Assembly: GCF_000787835.1 (NCBI RefSeq)
Contig: NZ_BBPP01000029.1
Span: forward strand, 43,762 to 107,761
Direction: 5' to 3'
Length of the DNA: 64,000 nt
DNA from: Streptacidiphilus melanogenes
GTDB taxonomy: Bacteria > Actinomycetota > Actinomycetes > Streptomycetales > Streptomycetaceae
A program made the position numbers and the translations under genes. The first letter of the stretch is position 1; the number at the start of each line of letters is the position of its first letter. The notes under the pieces were generated by a model, which worked only from the letters and a program-made list of their open reading frames with translations, had not been told where the DNA came from and made no database searches. Shown here piece by piece: positions 21,810 through 29,510 of the stretch.

Positions 21810-22583
21810 GTGACCTCCGCCCCCGCGCCGCGCGCCGGGTTCTTGCAACTGCGGGGCGTGAGCAAGCGGCACGGGCTGGTGCAGTCGTTGCACGAGGTGG
21901 ACCTGGAGCTGTCCCCGGGCGAGGTCGTCGCCCTGGTCGGCCCGACCGGCGCGGGCAAGACCACGCTCTGCCGGGCCATCCACGGCGCGGAGCGGATCGA
22001 CTCCGGCGAGATCCTGCTGGACGGCACCCCCCTCGTCGCCGGCGCGCGCGGGCGCGTGCGGCGCACCGCGCGGGCGGACGTCGGCCTCGTGCCGCCGCCG
22101 GAGACCGTCGAACACGCCCTGGTCGCCGCGCTCGACGCGCTCGGCCTCGGCCGGACCGTCTTCGGTGAGCTGACCCGCTGCCAGGTCGAGGTCCGCGGCA
22201 CCGCGCCGGAACTGGCCGCCGAACGCACCCTGGCAGCGCTGCGTCTCGTCGACGCGGACCACGAGTCGAGCCTGCGCAGCCGCCAGCTGAACCCGGTCGT
22301 GCGCGGCCGGGTGGCGCTCGCCCGCGCCCTGGTCCTCGATCCCAAGGTGCTGGTCCTCGACGAGCCGGCCGAAGAACTTCACTGTCTCGCCCGCGAGTTG
22401 GCCTCCGACGGGCGTACCATGCTGATCGTCACCGAGGACCTCGGCTTCGCCCACGCCACGGCGGACCGGGTCCTGTTCATGACCGGCGGCCGCATCGTGG
22501 AGTCCGCGCCGCCGGAGCAGTTCTTCTCGGCGCCGCGCACGTCGAGAGCGAGGGATTTCGTCTCGCGCCTGCGCAGACGGTGA
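21810..22583 (+). CDS. Degenerate GlnQ/GluA-like ABC ATPase, orphan
   Basis: 257 residues from GTG 21810 with GAGGAG 9 bases upstream. The polar amino-acid transporter ATPase fold is clear: LRGVSKRHG, Walker A GPTGAGKTTL (about 52) and Walker B KVLVLDEPAEE. The Q-loop reads VGLVPPPETV without its Gln. The signature LSGGQ is replaced by LNPVVRG. The D-loop region is shortened by about 15 residues (EPAEELHCLAREL). The switch His is replaced by Glu (VTEDLGFAHA). Codon use is normal and the frame is intact. No permease or binding-protein gene follows. It is probably unable to drive transport; a relic of gluA or a repurposed nucleotide-binding protein. Confidence 0.8.
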   Translation: MTSAPAPRAGFLQLRGVSKRHGLVQSLHEVDLELSPGEVVALVGPTGAGKTTLCRAIHGAERIDSGEILLDGTPLVAGARGRVRRTARADVGLVPPPETVEHALVAALDALGLGRTVFGELTRCQVEVRGTAPELAAERTLAALRLVDADHESSLRSRQLNPVVRGRVALARALVLDPKVLVLDEPAEELHCLARELASDGRTMLIVTEDLGFAHATADRVLFMTGGRIVESAPPEQFFSAPRTSRARDFVSRLRRR

Positions 22584-22706
22584 CCCCCTCGGCGTAACCT
22601 CGGCCGGCGACCGGTTCCGCACCCCTGGGCGGCGTGACGCCGCACCGCCCGGGACCGAATGGTTCCCGCGCGCGTGTGAAGTGAACCGGCGTACGCCTGA
22701 CGCTGC

Positions 22707-22736
22707 TTGACGTCGGCACAGGCGATCTGGTCCATT
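22707..22736 (+). promoter_or_regulatory. Possible promoter for leaderless expression of the FAD monooxygenase
   Basis: TTGACG at 22707-22712, an 18-base spacer and TCCATT at 22731-22736 end 7 bases before the ATG, which lacks any Shine-Dalgarno (CATTTCCTTCT precedes it). The -10 match is poor, so this is tentative. Confidence 0.3.
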
Positions 22737-22743
22737 TCCTTCT

Positions 22744-24399
22744 ATGACTGGCCCAGCCCATTCCGGATCCGACCCTGTGATCATCGCCGGCGCCGGTCCC
22801 ATCGGTCTCACCCTGGCGCTCGCCCTGGCCCGGCACCAGGTGCCGAGCATCGTGCTGGACGAGGGCACCGGGGTCGCCCCCGAGAGCTCCCGGTCGACCG
22901 TGCTGCGCACCGACACCGTCGGCTTCCTGCAGCGCATCGGCTACAGCAGGGTCACCGCCGACGGTCGCGGCTGGACCGCCTGGCGGACCCTGCGCCGCCA
23001 CCGCGAACTGCACAGCGTGGAGCTCCAGCACGACGACGTGCTGCACCTGGCCCAGCACCGCCTGCTGCGCGGTCTGCGGGACGCCGTCTCCGCGACGGGG
23101 CTGGTGGAGCTGCTGCCGGAGTCCACCCTGCTGGAGCTGGAGCAGGAGCCGGGCGAGGACGCCGTGAACGTCCACACCCAGCACACCTGGCTGCGCGGCA
23201 GCTTCCTGGTGGGGTGCGACGGGCCGCGTTCCACGGTCCGCAAGCGGCTCGCGTTGCGCTTCCCCGGGCGTGCGGCCGCCGACCACTACGCACTGGCCAC
23301 GATCCGGGCGGACCTGCCGTTCCCCGGGGAGGCGCTGCTGCACCGGGACCAGCCGCGGCAGTCCGGTGCGCCGATCGCGCGCGAAGTCGCGGCGCGACCG
23401 CTGCCGGACGGCGTCTGGCGACTGGACTGGCGGCTGCCGCCGCGCGCGCCCGGTTTCAGCCCGGACCAGCTGATCGAGCAACTGCGGGCCACCCTTGCGG
23501 CGTGGAACGGCGGCAAGGTCCCCGCCTACGAGCTGATCTCCAGCGCGGACTACGTCGTCCAGCAGCGGCTGGCCACCAAGTTCCAGGTGGGCCGGGCCTT
23601 CCTGGCGGGCGACGCGGCGCACCTGCTCGGCTCCCTCGGGATGCAGAACCTCGACGAGGGCCTGCGCGATGTGGACAACCTCGCCTGGAAACTCGGCCTG
23701 GTCTGGCAGGGCTGCGCGCCCGAGCGCCTGCTGACCACCTACCAGGCGGAACGCCGCAGCGCCGTGATCGCCCGGCTGCGGGCCGTGGACCAGGCGATGC
23801 CGCTGCTCCAACCCAGCACCGCCCTGCTGGAGGCGCGCCGCAGCCTGCTCTCCGGGTCGCTGCGCCGCAACGCGCGGCTGCTCTCCGACGGCAGCCTCGG
23901 CACCGGTCGGCTCGGCGGCGCGCCCGCCTATCCGGCCTCCGAAGGCCGTGGCAGCTCGGCCCTCACCCCCACGCTCAGCCCGACCAGCCCGGGCGTGCTG
24001 GTCCCGGACCTCCCCGTGATCACCGCGGACGGGGCCCACGACCGACTGCGCGCCCGGCTCGGCCGAGGCTTCCTGGTCGTCCTCGTCGCGCCCGGCACGG
24101 GCGTGTGGGCGTCCGAGCACTGGCTCGGAGCCGGCCTGATGCCGCAGCTGACGGAGACGACGGAGGGTCTGCCGCTCCCCGCCGAGCTGCTGGTCACCGA
24201 GAGCTACCCGGGCGCCGCCGCCCACAGCGTGCTGCTGATCAGGCCGGACGGGCACCTCGTCGCCGCCGTCGAGGGAAGCCGCCCCGGCGAGCTCTACGAC
24301 CTCGCGGACCGGGCCCGCAGCGCCGCGGCCGAGCTCCCCGTGCCGCGCACCGCGACCGGCGTGAGCGCCCGCGAAAGGCTGACGGCCGGTCAGTCCTGA
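22744..24399 (+). CDS. FAD-dependent aromatic-type monooxygenase
   Basis: 551 residues. The UbiH/PHBH-type flavoprotein fold has GAGPIGLTLALALARH (dinucleotide fold, residue about 16), the second FAD motif LVGCDGPRSTVRKRL (about 160), and GRAFLAGDAAHLLGSLGMQNLDEGLRD (about 285). In the last the usual Pro after GDAAH is absent. A thioredoxin-like C-terminal domain of about 130 residues follows, as in PheA/TetX-like hydroxylases. Predicted to use NADPH and O2 on a small substrate that cannot be named. It sits alone between the degenerate ATPase and the cysteine dioxygenase operon. Confidence 0.85.
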   Translation: MTGPAHSGSDPVIIAGAGPIGLTLALALARHQVPSIVLDEGTGVAPESSRSTVLRTDTVGFLQRIGYSRVTADGRGWTAWRTLRRHRELHSVELQHDDVLHLAQHRLLRGLRDAVSATGLVELLPESTLLELEQEPGEDAVNVHTQHTWLRGSFLVGCDGPRSTVRKRLALRFPGRAAADHYALATIRADLPFPGEALLHRDQPRQSGAPIAREVAARPLPDGVWRLDWRLPPRAPGFSPDQLIEQLRATLAAWNGGKVPAYELISSADYVVQQRLATKFQVGRAFLAGDAAHLLGSLGMQNLDEGLRDVDNLAWKLGLVWQGCAPERLLTTYQAERRSAVIARLRAVDQAMPLLQPSTALLEARRSLLSGSLRRNARLLSDGSLGTGRLGGAPAYPASEGRGSSALTPTLSPTSPGVLVPDLPVITADGAHDRLRARLGRGFLVVLVAPGTGVWASEHWLGAGLMPQLTETTEGLPLPAELLVTESYPGAAAHSVLLIRPDGHLVAAVEGSRPGELYDLADRARSAAAELPVPRTATGVSARERLTAGQS

Positions 24400-24412
24400 T
24401 GGCGGACGTTCC

Positions 24413-24441
24413 TTGACGATCACCTGGGGCCGTGCTCTACT
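24413..24441 (+). promoter_or_regulatory. Promoter of the cysteine dioxygenase leader
   Basis: TTGACG (24413-24418), a 17-base spacer and TCTACT (24436-24441). The predicted start of transcription falls at or next to the ATG at 24448, so the leader reading frame would be translated from a leaderless transcript. Confidence 0.7.
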
Positions 24442-24447
24442 CGCGGC

Positions 24448-24558
24448 ATGGGGATCACCGTTCTGCTGCCCGCCCGCAGCACGCGCCGACCGGACGCCGT
24501 CCGGTGCCCCCACCTGTGTTGCACCTCGTTCTGCGCGTCGTTCTGTACCCAGGGCTGA
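24448..24558 (+). CDS. Cysteine-rich 36-residue leader peptide (uORF)
   Basis: ATG 24448 to TGA 24556-24558, placed 6 bases after a good -10 hexamer and without a Shine-Dalgarno, hence probably leaderless. Cysteines are at positions 20, 24, 25, 29 and 33 of 36, against very low Cys use in the surrounding proteins; Cys24 and Cys25 are adjacent. Two hairpins begin 16 and 35 bases after the stop, and a third lies nearer the dioxygenase gene. The arrangement fits ribosome-mediated sensing of charged Cys-tRNA controlling the cysteine dioxygenase-rhodanese operon 206 bases downstream. The peptide itself probably has no function. Confidence 0.7.
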   Translation: MGITVLLPARSTRRPDAVRCPHLCCTSFCASFCTQG

Positions 24559-24573
24559 CCTGACGCCCGGCTG

Positions 24574-24607
24574 GAGAAGCACGCTTCTCGCCGCCGTCAC
24601 GGACGGC
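24574..24607 (+). promoter_or_regulatory. Two adjacent hairpins after the Cys-rich leader (attenuator-like)
   Basis: GAGAAG-CACG-CTTCTC at 24574-24589 and GCCGTC-ACG-GACGGC at 24593-24607, the second followed by CCTTC. A ribosome held in the Cys-codon cluster or at the leader stop would be close enough to alter upstream folding. No competing antiterminator pairing was worked out. Confidence 0.5.
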
Positions 24608-24680
24608 CCTTCACCCGGCATCCCACGCCGCCGCGCCACCTGACCCGACCGCAGCCGCGCCTTCACGCGCCCGCGCGGTC

Positions 24681-24710
24681 CTCCCCCAGCCTTCGGCCGG
24701 GGGTATCCCA
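24681..24710 (+). repeat. Streptomyces-type dispersed hairpin element, copy 2
   Basis: CCCCCAGCC-TTC-GGCCGGGGG forms a strong hairpin with flanks like those of the element at 18158-18194 in reverse orientation. It lies 54 bases before the cysteine dioxygenase ATG, inside the 205-bp stretch between leader stop and gene, and could contribute to transcription termination or pausing. Confidence 0.7.
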
Positions 24711-24763
24711 TTCGGCGCCCGGCGGCGTCCCGTCATCGCCCCGACGCCTCCCAGGACGCCACC

Positions 24764-25348
24764 ATGACCACGAACGCCGACACCGTGACCGCCGACGCCC
24801 CGCCCTCGGGCGCCGCCGCCGCCAACCCCGGCACCGCAACCGCCCCGACCACGACCGTCGCCCCCGATCTCACGGTCCTGCTCACCTTCGCCCAGGCCGT
24901 CGCCGCCGACCCGGACGCACTGGGCCGCCTGGCGCTCCATCCGACGGAGCGCACCTGGGTCCGTCTGGACGGGCCCGGCGGCAGCGAGGCCTGGCTGATC
25001 GGCTGGCCGCCCGGTTCGGAGACCGGCTGGCACGACCACGGCGGCTCCAGCGGCGCGTTCGTCACCGCGCGCGGCGAGCTGAGCGAGCACTCGCTCGTGA
25101 TGCCGCTGCCCAGCAGCGGCTGGCGCAGCCTGGAACTGGAGGAGGGCGTCGACCGGCAGCGGGTGCTGCCGTCGGGCCGCGGTCGCGCCTTCGGTCCCCA
25201 CCACGTGCACCAGGTCGTCAACCCCTCGGTGGCCGACCACGCCGTCTCGGTGCACGTCTACCACCCGCCGCTGCCGCGGCTGCGACGCTACGAACGCAGC
25301 GGGGACGTCCTGAGCGTCACCGCCGTCGAAACCCAGGAGGACTGGTGA
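24764..25348 (+). CDS. Cysteine dioxygenase type I
   Basis: Non-haem iron cupin that oxidises L-cysteine to cysteine sulfinate. 194 residues, the first about 35 being an Ala/Thr/Pro-rich tail. The iron-binding histidines are visible in GWHDHGG (about residues 90 and 92) and FGPHHVHQVVN (about 146-149), with the cupin strands around GAFVTARGELSEHSL and HAVSVHVYHPPL. First full gene of a two-gene operon; its TGA overlaps the GTG start of the rhodanese gene. Preceded by the Cys-rich leader at 24448-24558. Confidence 0.9.
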   Translation: MTTNADTVTADAPPSGAAAANPGTATAPTTTVAPDLTVLLTFAQAVAADPDALGRLALHPTERTWVRLDGPGGSEAWLIGWPPGSETGWHDHGGSSGAFVTARGELSEHSLVMPLPSSGWRSLELEEGVDRQRVLPSGRGRAFGPHHVHQVVNPSVADHAVSVHVYHPPLPRLRRYERSGDVLSVTAVETQEDW

Positions 25349-25734
25349 GCACACGGATCGACATCGACGCCCTGCTCGAACGTGAACGCGCGCACCTGCG
25401 GCGCGTGACGCCGCACGAGGCAGCACAGGCCGTCGCGCGGGAGGGCGCGCTGCTCGTGGACATCCGCTATGCCGCGCTGCGCGAACGGGACGGGGTGATC
25501 CCGGGGGCGCTGGTCGTGGAGCGCAACGAACTGGAGTGGCGCATGGACCCGCAGTGCGCCCACCGCGCGCCGGAGACCACGGACCACGACCGCCTGGTCA
25601 TCGTGGTGTGCAACGAGGGCTACGCCTCCTCCCTCGCCGCGCGGTCCCTCCAGGCGCTCGGCCTCCACCGGGCCACCGACCTCATCGGCGGCTTCCAGGC
25701 CTGGGCGGCGGAGGACCTCCCGGTGTCGAGATAG
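25345..25734 (+). CDS. Rhodanese-like domain protein
   Basis: 129 residues, a single rhodanese domain. The GTG start overlaps the dioxygenase stop (GTGA). The active-site loop is VVCNEGYASSLAA with the catalytic Cys at about residue 89; CNEGYAS is a six-residue loop as in sulfur transferases rather than the longer Cdc25 loop. Expected to handle persulfide sulfur produced with cysteine breakdown. Coupled expression with the dioxygenase supports a joint role in cysteine or sulfane-sulfur disposal. Confidence 0.88.
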   Translation: MSTRIDIDALLERERAHLRRVTPHEAAQAVAREGALLVDIRYAALRERDGVIPGALVVERNELEWRMDPQCAHRAPETTDHDRLVIVVCNEGYASSLAARSLQALGLHRATDLIGGFQAWAAEDLPVSR

Positions 25735-25763
25735 CGGCGAGCCGCGCCTGTGCTGCGCCCGCA

Positions 25764-27203
25764 CTAGCGGGCGAAGCTCGTCGCGCGGCTCTCCCGGATC
25801 ACCGTGATCCGGATCTGGCCGGGGTAGGTGAGTTCGTTCTCGACCTCGCGGGCCACGTCCTTCGCCAGCACCTGCGCCTGGACGTCGTCCACCGCCTCCG
25901 GCAGCACCATCACCCGGACCTCGCGGCCCGCCTGCATCGCGTAGACCTTGTGGACGCCCTCGTGCCGGCGGGCGATCTCCTCAAGCTTCTCCAGGCGGCG
26001 CGCGTGGAGTTCCACCGACTCCCGGCGCGCGCCCGGCCTGCCGCCGGAGCAGGCGTCCGCGGCCTGGGTGAGGACGGCCTCGACCGTCTGCGGCTCGATC
26101 TCGTTGTGGTGCGCCGCGACCGCGTGCACGACCTCCTCCGACTCGCCGTAGCGGCGGGCGAGTTCGGCGCCGATCTGGGCGTGACTGCCTTCCGCGACGG
26201 GGGCGCTGCCGCCGGGAGGCTGCGGGAGGGTGACCGCCTTCCCTATGTCGTGCAGCAGGCTGCACCGCTTGACCAGCATCGGGTCCACCCGCAGCTCGGC
26301 CGCCATCGCCCCGGCCAGATGCGCGGACTCGACCAGGTGGCCCAGCACGTTCTGGCCGTAGGAGGTGCGGTAGCGCAACCGGCCCAGCAGACGCATCAGT
26401 TCCGGGTGCAGCTCGTCGAGGCCGACCTCGGCGACCGCCTCCTCCGCCGCCGCCCGGCAGAGCCGTTCGACCTGGGCGAGGCTGCGCTCGTAGGCGTCCT
26501 CGATCCGCTGCGGATGGATCCGCCCGTCGGCGATCAGCTCCTCCAGGGCGAGCCGGCCCACCTCCCGCCGGACCGGGTCGAAGCAGGAGAGCAGCACCGA
26601 CTCCGGGGTCTCGTCGATGACCAGGTTGACGCCCGTGACTGCCTCGAAGGAGCGGATGTTGCGGCCCTCGCGGCCGATGATCCTGCCCTTCATGTCCTCG
26701 CCCGGCAGCCGCACGGCGGTGACCACGTGGTCCGCCGTGCCCTGCACGGAGACGCGCTGGATCGCGGAGGCCACGATCTCCCGGGCGCGGACCTCCCCGT
26801 CCGTCCGGGCCTGCCGCTCGATCTCCCGGACCGTCAGCACGGCGTCACGCTTGGCCTGCTGCTCGACGGACCGGACCAGTTCCGCGCGGGCGTCCGCCGC
26901 GCTGAGGCCGGCCACCTCCTCCAGCATGCGCCGCCGCTCGACGGCCAGCTCCTCGGAGCGAAGCTGGAGTTCGGCCTGAGCCTGGGCCGTGTCCAACTCG
27001 CGCTGGAGCAGCCGGTGCTGCTCCTCGTCGATGCGGGCCTCGCGTTCCGCGCTGCGCTGCTCGCGCCGGTCCAGTTCGAGCGCGCGCTCCCGGGCGCTGT
27101 GCAGGAGTTGACGCACCGCGAGACCGGCGACCGAGAGCAGGACCAGGCCGATGATCATCAGGAGCACCGGAACGGTTGCGGTCGCTGCGATGGCCAACGT
27201 CAT
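25764..27203 (-). CDS. rny: Ribonuclease Y-like membrane-anchored endoribonuclease
   Basis: 479 residues. One N-terminal membrane span (about 10-32), a charged coiled coil (about 35-150), a KH domain with GRIIGREGRNIRSFE (about 173), then an HD domain with LLHDIGKAV (about 318) and AAHHNEI. This is the complete RNase Y layout known from Bacillus, where it initiates mRNA decay at the membrane; the coiled coil is somewhat short. GGGGAGGG precedes the ATG. It is convergent with the rhodanese gene, 29 bases apart, and has its own promoter in the gap before recX. Many actinobacteria rely on RNase E and J, so its role here is inferred only from architecture. Confidence 0.9.
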   Translation of the reverse strand: MTLAIAATATVPVLLMIIGLVLLSVAGLAVRQLLHSARERALELDRREQRSAEREARIDEEQHRLLQRELDTAQAQAELQLRSEELAVERRRMLEEVAGLSAADARAELVRSVEQQAKRDAVLTVREIERQARTDGEVRAREIVASAIQRVSVQGTADHVVTAVRLPGEDMKGRIIGREGRNIRSFEAVTGVNLVIDETPESVLLSCFDPVRREVGRLALEELIADGRIHPQRIEDAYERSLAQVERLCRAAAEEAVAEVGLDELHPELMRLLGRLRYRTSYGQNVLGHLVESAHLAGAMAAELRVDPMLVKRCSLLHDIGKAVTLPQPPGGSAPVAEGSHAQIGAELARRYGESEEVVHAVAAHHNEIEPQTVEAVLTQAADACSGGRPGARRESVELHARRLEKLEEIARRHEGVHKVYAMQAGREVRVMVLPEAVDDVQAQVLAKDVAREVENELTYPGQIRITVIRESRATSFAR

Positions 27204-28270: not shown

Positions 28271-29398
<1,128 letters not shown>

Positions 29399-29510
29399 GG
29401 GTGCCACCTTGGGGGTCTGTGCTGAACGCTTCATCACCGAAGACGCTAGCGCGCACCACTGACAAAAGACCCTCGCGGAGGGCAGGCCTGTGGATAACGT
29501 GCCGGAATCC

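Follow-up and report, generated by a model that had tools for sequence, protein, structure and literature searches.

A candidate cysteine-sensing leader ORF upstream of a cysteine dioxygenase-rhodanese operon in Streptacidiphilus melanogenes and other Streptomycetaceae

Why should a gene predicted to degrade cysteine be preceded by a short ORF rich in Cys codons, and in which direction would such an ORF control it? Both Cys leaders before actinobacterial cys operons and, in mycobacteria, leaderless polycysteine sORFs have already been described (available text of PMC1262725, PMC4633059, PMC9094748, PMC9031893, and PMC13236596). In the 64,000-nucleotide (nt) stretch of S. melanogenes DNA analyzed here (the window), the gene in question is by Pfam a cysteine dioxygenase (CDO), its substrate being predicted, and its best PDB match is 8qfr, "Cysteine dioxygenase" (E = 1.5e-11). 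Among named genomes, those of Streptacidiphilus anmyonensis (95%, best segment) and S. neutrinimicus (94%) come nearest. The original prediction was of an inverted sign of control, with abundant Cys-tRNA favoring expression of genes that destroy cysteine.

The leader ORF and its promoter in the window

As had been predicted, a frame of 36 codons with five Cys codons among its last 17 lies upstream of the CDO gene (Table 1). The Cys codons are TGC, TGT, TGC, TGC, and TGT, with one adjacent pair. None of 2,000 dinucleotide shuffles of positions 24400 to 24763 gave an ATG or GTG frame with at least five Cys codons in its last 17. The gap from the leader to the CDO gene is long (205 nt) and C-rich.

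The boxes described as a good promoter are where they had been placed, and their layout is kept among relatives: TTGAC followed by C or G, a spacer of 17 to 18 nt, a hexamer with A4 and T6, and 6 to 7 nt to the start codon are found at 67 of 73 leaders, with six misfits (A4 and T6 are imposed by the layout filter). "Good" is too strong, however, because TCTACT has no A at position 2 and a sigma-70 scan of positions 23900 to 25000 found no sites; in S. lividans, 94.5% of the −10 boxes of leaderless transcripts have an A there (PMC8079986, in the part available). The 6-nt spacing after this nonconsensus −10 suggests that the leader transcript would start without a 5′ untranslated region.

Three downstream hairpins had been described, two of them adjacent. 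The best fold of the two is a single long imperfect hairpin, most pairs of which are intact, and mostly invariant, in six clade sequences. The third, said to be stronger, is weaker and belongs to a dispersed element: its sequence is found at 40 places within 2 mismatches in the genome, the window copy included (reversed control, 0), and in 3 of the 11 rows of the clade alignment (L001, L002, and L135). As a dispersed repeat of this distribution, it was rejected as a regulator. A search of positions 22000 to 27000 against Rfam 15 gave no matches up to an E value of 1, and thus no described riboswitch or T-box.

Table 1 Features of the leader region and its surroundings, in window coordinates
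Feature	Position	Strand	Remarks
Promoter-like pair TTGACG-17-TCTACT	24413..24441	+	TTGACG, 24413-24418; TCTACT, 24436-24441; 6 nt before ATG at 24448
Leader ORF, MGITVLLPARSTRRPDAVRCPHLCCTSFCASFCTQG	24448..24558	+	36 codons plus TGA; Cys at codons 20, 24, 25, 29, and 33
Hairpin CCGGAC-GCC-GTCCGG	24490..24504	+	Inside leader codons 15-19; GGAC-N3-GTCC kept in the 11-row clade alignment
Short repeat TCGTTCTG	24526-24533 and 24538-24545	+	Inside a 24-nt stretch without counterpart in 27-aa relatives
Long imperfect hairpin	about 24550-24612	+	Fold, −35.0 kcal/mol; last leader codon and stop at its base
Dispersed repeat hairpin CCCCCAGCCTTCGGCCGGGGG	24683..24703	+	−14.7 kcal/mol; probably outside the leader proper
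Pairing stretch GCGCCCGGCGGCGTCCCGTC	24715..24734	+	Can pair with leader 24487-24507, or by GGCGTCC (24724-24730) with GGACGCC of the SD region; almost no covariation
CDO Shine-Dalgarno (SD) region AGGACGCC	24753..24760	+	
Cysteine dioxygenase (CDO), PF05995	24764..25348	+	E = 1.3e-35; 122.9 bits versus gathering score of 23
Rhodanese-domain protein, PF00581	25345..25734	+	E = 2e-15; overlaps the CDO stop by 4 nt
RecA frame	28271-29437		

Conservation and family of the leader

At every CDO-A locus of the 14 Streptacidiphilus genomes, a short ORF lies 6 to 7 nt 3′ of a −10-like box. Adding 60 family loci from other genera, picked among the best matches listed, gave a sample of 74 loci; because of that choice, genomes without a close CDO-A stand outside the count. 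By our filter, 73 of the 74 have a leader at the same place before the CDO gene. In the exception, L092, the core described below is visible; the −35 filter missed it, and the locus was dropped before the counts. With a similar filter, 77 of 80 named loci, a set that overlaps the 74 in species, had a leader, one of the 77 being doubtful; two of the three misses, L200 (Actinospica) and L205 (Wenjunlia), contain an open frame that encodes the core, and none was seen in L157. Outside the family, a class-wide search with a loose filter found a Cys-rich or core-bearing short ORF before 6 of 19 CDO-like genes (L308 to L311, L323, and L324), L323 and L324 being doubtful. The predicted Cys leader ahead of the CDO-rhodanese pair is thus conserved, with its leaderless layout, and a lack of conserved frame or Cys codons among relatives was not what we found.

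That the window ORF arose by chance and has no function is a negligible possibility: its −10 box is weak and its peptide matches no family, but this count of leaders and the shuffles argue against it. The 36-codon frame is real.

Most leaders share a form ending RRVHxDLVRYAGCVCRPSC. In the 66 core-bearing leaders the two R residues of the first pair are kept in 66 and 65, H, D, and the next R in 66 each, Y in 63, and the last Cys in 66. Several of the codons vary: the second core R is encoded by AGG in 48, CGC in 9, CGA in 4, and CGT in 3, H by CAT in 43 and CAC in 23, and Y by TAC in 40 and TAT in 23, and the R between D and Y varies among CGC, CGG, and AGG. Only D (GAC) and the last Cys (TGT) have the same codon in 66 of 66. 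Since the residues are kept and several codons are variable, selection must act on the peptide besides any that acts on the RNA.

This pattern raises the possibility of nascent-peptide arrest, for which TnaC and ErmCL are the models, in place of codon hunger. The RRVHxDLxRYxGxxC core would act in the exit tunnel, sense cysteine or a thiol, and turn the CDO gene on at high ligand. Besides the conserved residues, this would suit the seven relatives whose leaders have a single Cys codon toward the end and the model described below, in which release at the stop codon likewise opens the SD. Yet the TGT of the last core Cys fits a codon-reading site equally well, and in the window clade the core is gone and Cys codons have been added, so that we rate peptide arrest as quite unlikely.

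The leaders without the core are the seven of the window clade (L001 to L006 and L012), in which R.D.VR is left and the GGAC-N3-GTCC hairpin is kept. Streptacidiphilus leaders come in two shapes, one of 27, 36, or 40 amino acids (aa) in the window clade and a long form of 56 to 57 aa (L007 to L011, L013, and L014) that ends in LVRRAHLDLVRYVGALCTAG and has a single Cys close to its terminus. The 27-aa relatives L004 and L012 have two Cys codons each; compared with these in the clade alignment, the 24-nt stretch that holds the short repeat (Table 1) adds Cys codons to the window leader. As judged from the alignment, the family core has been lost from the window leader and Cys codons gained by a short duplication. 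Of the expectation that the start and the five Cys codons would be kept while other codons drift, the frame and the leader itself stood; the five Cys codons are a lineage-specific expansion, and outside the window clade it is the core residues that are kept.

The NF042934 profile ("putative leader peptide") gave 37.1, 28, 28, and 16.5 bits for four leaders of CDO orthologues, so that three pass the cutoff of 27; those that pass, from other genera, cover the whole 19-position model. Two of the long Streptacidiphilus forms scored 17.0 and 17.4 bits, under the cutoff, and the window peptide matched neither NF042934 nor NF042933 at E values of ≤1. For NF042933, the Cys-rich leader of Ms5788A, two orthologues scored 18.3 and 19.1 bits versus a cutoff of 45. 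Nonetheless, the window leader is a positional orthologue of NF042934 members: it has the same place before an orthologous CDO gene and the same promoter layout, with intermediates in L004 to L012. The ORF is one of an already described class of cysteine-sensing leaders.

In the host genome NF042934 had 21 matches at E values of ≤10, six over the cutoff and ten with E values below 0.05; for 14 control genomes the figures were 10 matching at E values of ≤10 and 0 over the cutoff. By Pfam, the genes behind the ten best host matches encode a PALP enzyme (by our reading of the cysteine synthase type), a rhodanese with DUF1416, a sulfite/nitrite reductase (NIR_SIR), two luciferase-type monooxygenases, an NMT1-type binding protein, a 2OG-Fe oxygenase, an arylsulfotransferase, and an ABC permease; L058 has no assigned gene. 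The six matches that exceed the cutoff precede PALP, rhodanese-DUF1416, NIR_SIR, luciferase-type monooxygenase, and transport genes. The rhodanese-DUF1416 pair, behind leader L055, is of the cysA2-sseC type. Leaders precede the sulfite reductase orthologues at 28 of 30 loci and the cysA2 orthologues at 28 of 30.

Some further details were seen in passing. L061 and L062, of the same genome, are NF042934-like leaders below the cutoff that precede the 2OG-Fe oxygenase and the arylsulfotransferase, possibly more sulfur genes. Between leader and gene, many of the sulfite reductase loci (L215 to L244) have a GCAGGTCAG-like motif in common. A second CDO-like gene of the host genome (L022/L046; G000:C65:17052-17745) has its own Cys-ended leader, MSTHRVSSSSRLHGSLRRAASALCCRCR (ending RRAASALCCRCR), with the layout TTGACA/TCTGCT, and other Streptacidiphilus loci have similar leaders; by our pattern, a Cys-ended leader precedes the second CDO-like gene at 11 of 30 family loci. 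The family profiles gave no match with three CDO-B leaders.

Predicted pairing of the leader with the CDO Shine-Dalgarno sequence

With moderate confidence, we interpret the window ORF as a cysteine leader of the NF042934 type, which is widespread among actinobacteria. It would be leaderless, be read by ribosomes, and turn CDO on when Cys-tRNA is scarce. Conservation, family, regulon context, and anti-SD complementarity were computed for this reading. Ribosomes would start at the first codon of the leader and, when Cys-tRNA is scarce, would pause or stall at the Cys codon or codons toward its end. In orthologues of the Streptomyces type the last leader codons would serve as the anti-SD of the CDO gene. 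A stalled ribosome would cover them and free the CDO start, and CDO and rhodanese would be made together with the sulfur assimilation genes that share the leader type; with plentiful Cys the ribosome would leave, the helix would re-form, and translation would fall.

Four leaders (L006, L014, L080, and L117) have no assigned CDO start; therefore, 69 of the 73 were folded. In 38 of these, the PS group, the leader ends in CCG TCC TGC TGA or close to it (CCGTCCTG) and the CDO SD is CAGGACGG. The 6-bp core of the pairing, CCGTCC with GGACGG, is complete in 35 of the 38, the leader Ser codon is TCC in 38 of 38, and the next pair is T-A in 26, C-G in 3, A-T in 1, T-G in 2, and unpaired in 6. A second covarying element is TCGC after the leader stop: where GCGAA precedes the SD it is present at 22 of 23 loci, and where GCGAT does, at 0 of 11 (counted by hand among related loci, with kinship uncorrected). 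The duplex of leader end and SD averaged −22.7 kcal/mol versus −13.5 kcal/mol with shuffled SDs, and the matched mean was reached by none of 2,000 permutations, either over all loci or within the PS group.

We then computed the accessibility of the SD core from partition-function folds with the ribosome footprint blocked. In the 38 PS loci it averaged 0.06 when the leader was free. Placing the ribosome at the Cys codon raised the mean to 0.26, with an increase in 33 loci and a decrease in 1; a ribosome at the stop gave 0.29, and one eleven codons farther upstream gave 0.07. Because the loci are related, the PS P values overstate the case, and because the SD is as open at the stop as at the Cys codon, the fold alone cannot separate stalling from termination. 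RNAalifold did not recover the leader-SD helix from 34 of the 38 PS sequences (long-gap rows left out, identical rows merged); the case for the helix is consequently made by direct complementarity, by the counts of covarying pairs, and by the footprint folds.

Judged by group means, there was no switch in the remaining 31 folded loci; the means (free/at Cys) were 0.28/0.28 for AAR, 0.27/0.23 for PGSR, 0.41/0.34 for DTV, and 0.30/0.29 for Streptacidiphilus. Among the 12 Streptacidiphilus members a leader end paired no better with its own SD (−13.4) than with those of the same group (−13.6) or of other groups (−16.0). Nor were the biosynthetic leaders decisive: in footprint folds the sulfite reductase leaders showed no switch (27 loci, P = 0.21), those of cysA2 a small rise, from 0.17 to 0.23 (16 loci), and those of CDO-B no clear switch, 0.34 to 0.30 (9 loci, P = 0.65). 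Their geometry could therefore not fix the sign.

By the footprint folds the Streptomyces-type switch is absent from the window and its clade. In the window the SD core had an accessibility of 0.13 free, 0.18 with the ribosome at Cys33, and 0.18 at the stop; a wider SD window gave 0.37 free and 0.41 to 0.48 with the ribosome at codons 20 to 37. L005 differs, with 0.09 free and 0.41 to 0.46 at codons 19 to 29. The rearranged copy in the window may, on our reading, still work in the same sense.

An inverted sign could hold in the window clade if the stretch at 24715 to 24734 paired with free codons 14 to 20, leaving the SD open, and a ribosome stalled at the first Cys codons blocked that pairing, so that GGCGTCC turned to the SD; plentiful Cys would then mean on. 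RNAalifold of six clade sequences predicts this long-range helix, the same stretch holds the complement of the SD, and such control would suit a gene for degrading cysteine, a homologue of which is induced by nitrogen starvation. Against this, there is almost no covariation: variation within the long-range helix mostly gives G-U or broken pairs, and L004 and L012 break pairs of one helix or the other. Moreover, SD accessibility does not fall with the ribosome at the Cys codons (codons 20 to 33, 0.41 to 0.47 in the wider SD window), and the regulon context points the opposite way. We think inversion in the clade rather unlikely.

Control might instead be transcriptional, with leader translation acting through Rho access or through an intrinsic terminator located in the gap. 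A role of Rho has been put forward for the cys leaders of mycobacteria (PMC1262725, in the available part), the published responses are mRNA changes, and the length and C-richness of the gap would suit Rho. A scan of positions 23900 to 25000 for a hairpin with a T run, however, found no terminator-like site, and thus nothing of a trp-type attenuator, and the gaps are only 46 to 48 nt in L122 and L109. This alternative is tentative and, on balance, unlikely.

Published responses, related leaders, and the sign of control

For expression data we turned to Streptomyces coelicolor, in which recA is SCO5769; the window has its RecA frame near the CDO gene. With the naming of SCO5772 as a putative cysteine dioxygenase (PMC3087709), this position makes SCO5772 the presumed orthologue of the window CDO. 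Under H2O2, 28 S. coelicolor genes rose (M ≥ 1.5), among them ssuABC, cysNDCHI, cysA, cysM, and metIN, with SCO5772 up 8.0-fold and SCO3035 6.5-fold; there was no rise in the hbpS-senS-senR mutant (available text of PMC4991794). This result favors the ordinary sign, bearing in mind that H2O2 induction differs from cysteine starvation and bears on a response to cysteine only indirectly. Sven_5427, the S. venezuelae homologue, rises >5-fold in nitrogen starvation in a GlnR-dependent manner (PMC3087709, in the part available), which leaves room for a catabolic role.

For the family the sign is probably the ordinary one, with scarce Cys-tRNA turning CDO on together with the cysteine-making genes, because a ribosome at the Cys codon uncovers the SD in the PS model and SCO5772 rises with the cys genes. 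The inverted sign originally predicted is thus not borne out at the level of the family, in which the same leaders also precede genes of the cysteine biosynthesis type.

The likeness to NF042934 lies in a short Cys-ended ORF before sulfur genes and in the CDO-leader orthologues that pass its cutoff; the difference is the unmatched window peptide. Mycobacterial leaderless polycysteine sORFs such as Ms5788A have a similar layout, with Cys codons near the stop, and regulation by ribosome speed has been proposed for attenuators of this type (Canestrari 2020, as cited in the available text of PMC9031893, PMC9094748, and PMC13236596; Shell 2015, PMC4633059). Here, by contrast, the controlled gene is for a cysteine dioxygenase, and the NF042933 scores are low. 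The cys leaders of Seliverstov et al. 2005 are also short upstream ORFs of actinobacteria with Cys codon runs near the stop and no intrinsic terminator, but they precede cys operons and cbs in Mycobacterium, Propionibacterium, and Bifidobacterium, and dioxygenase and rhodanese are absent from the available text (PMC1262725). In translation attenuation by SD masking (PMC13236596, in the available part), a leader pairs with the downstream SD and a stalled ribosome unmasks it, as modeled for the PS group; support for this here is limited to 38 of 69 folded loci, outside the window clade. We recognized no description of a Cys leader before a cysteine dioxygenase gene in the literature searched, which takes in only a minority of subscription journals. 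Among the eight S. lividans leader peptides listed in the available part of PMC8079986 there is none for cysteine. The metL "methionine leader" before metNIQ in that source ends ARCMCRRMCAF, with three Cys codons, and may be a cysteine leader.

A broader reading, which we consider distinctly unlikely, would make the core a cysteine- or thiol-responsive arrest peptide whose last codons lock the CDO start. CDO and rhodanese would then belong to a sulfur salvage or thiol stress regulon and not to cysteine overflow, and in the window lineage the peptide sensor would have decayed and been replaced by Cys codon counting through a small duplication.

A gene annotated as cysteine degrading carries, across a bacterial family, the kind of leader found before cysteine-making genes. 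Either the role of the enzyme has been misjudged, and it serves sulfur salvage or thiol stress in place of overflow, or else this sensor acts here in the reverse direction. A ribosome-read leader common to sulfur genes would also be a possible explanation of the joint rise of the cys genes and SCO5772 under H2O2 in S. coelicolor.
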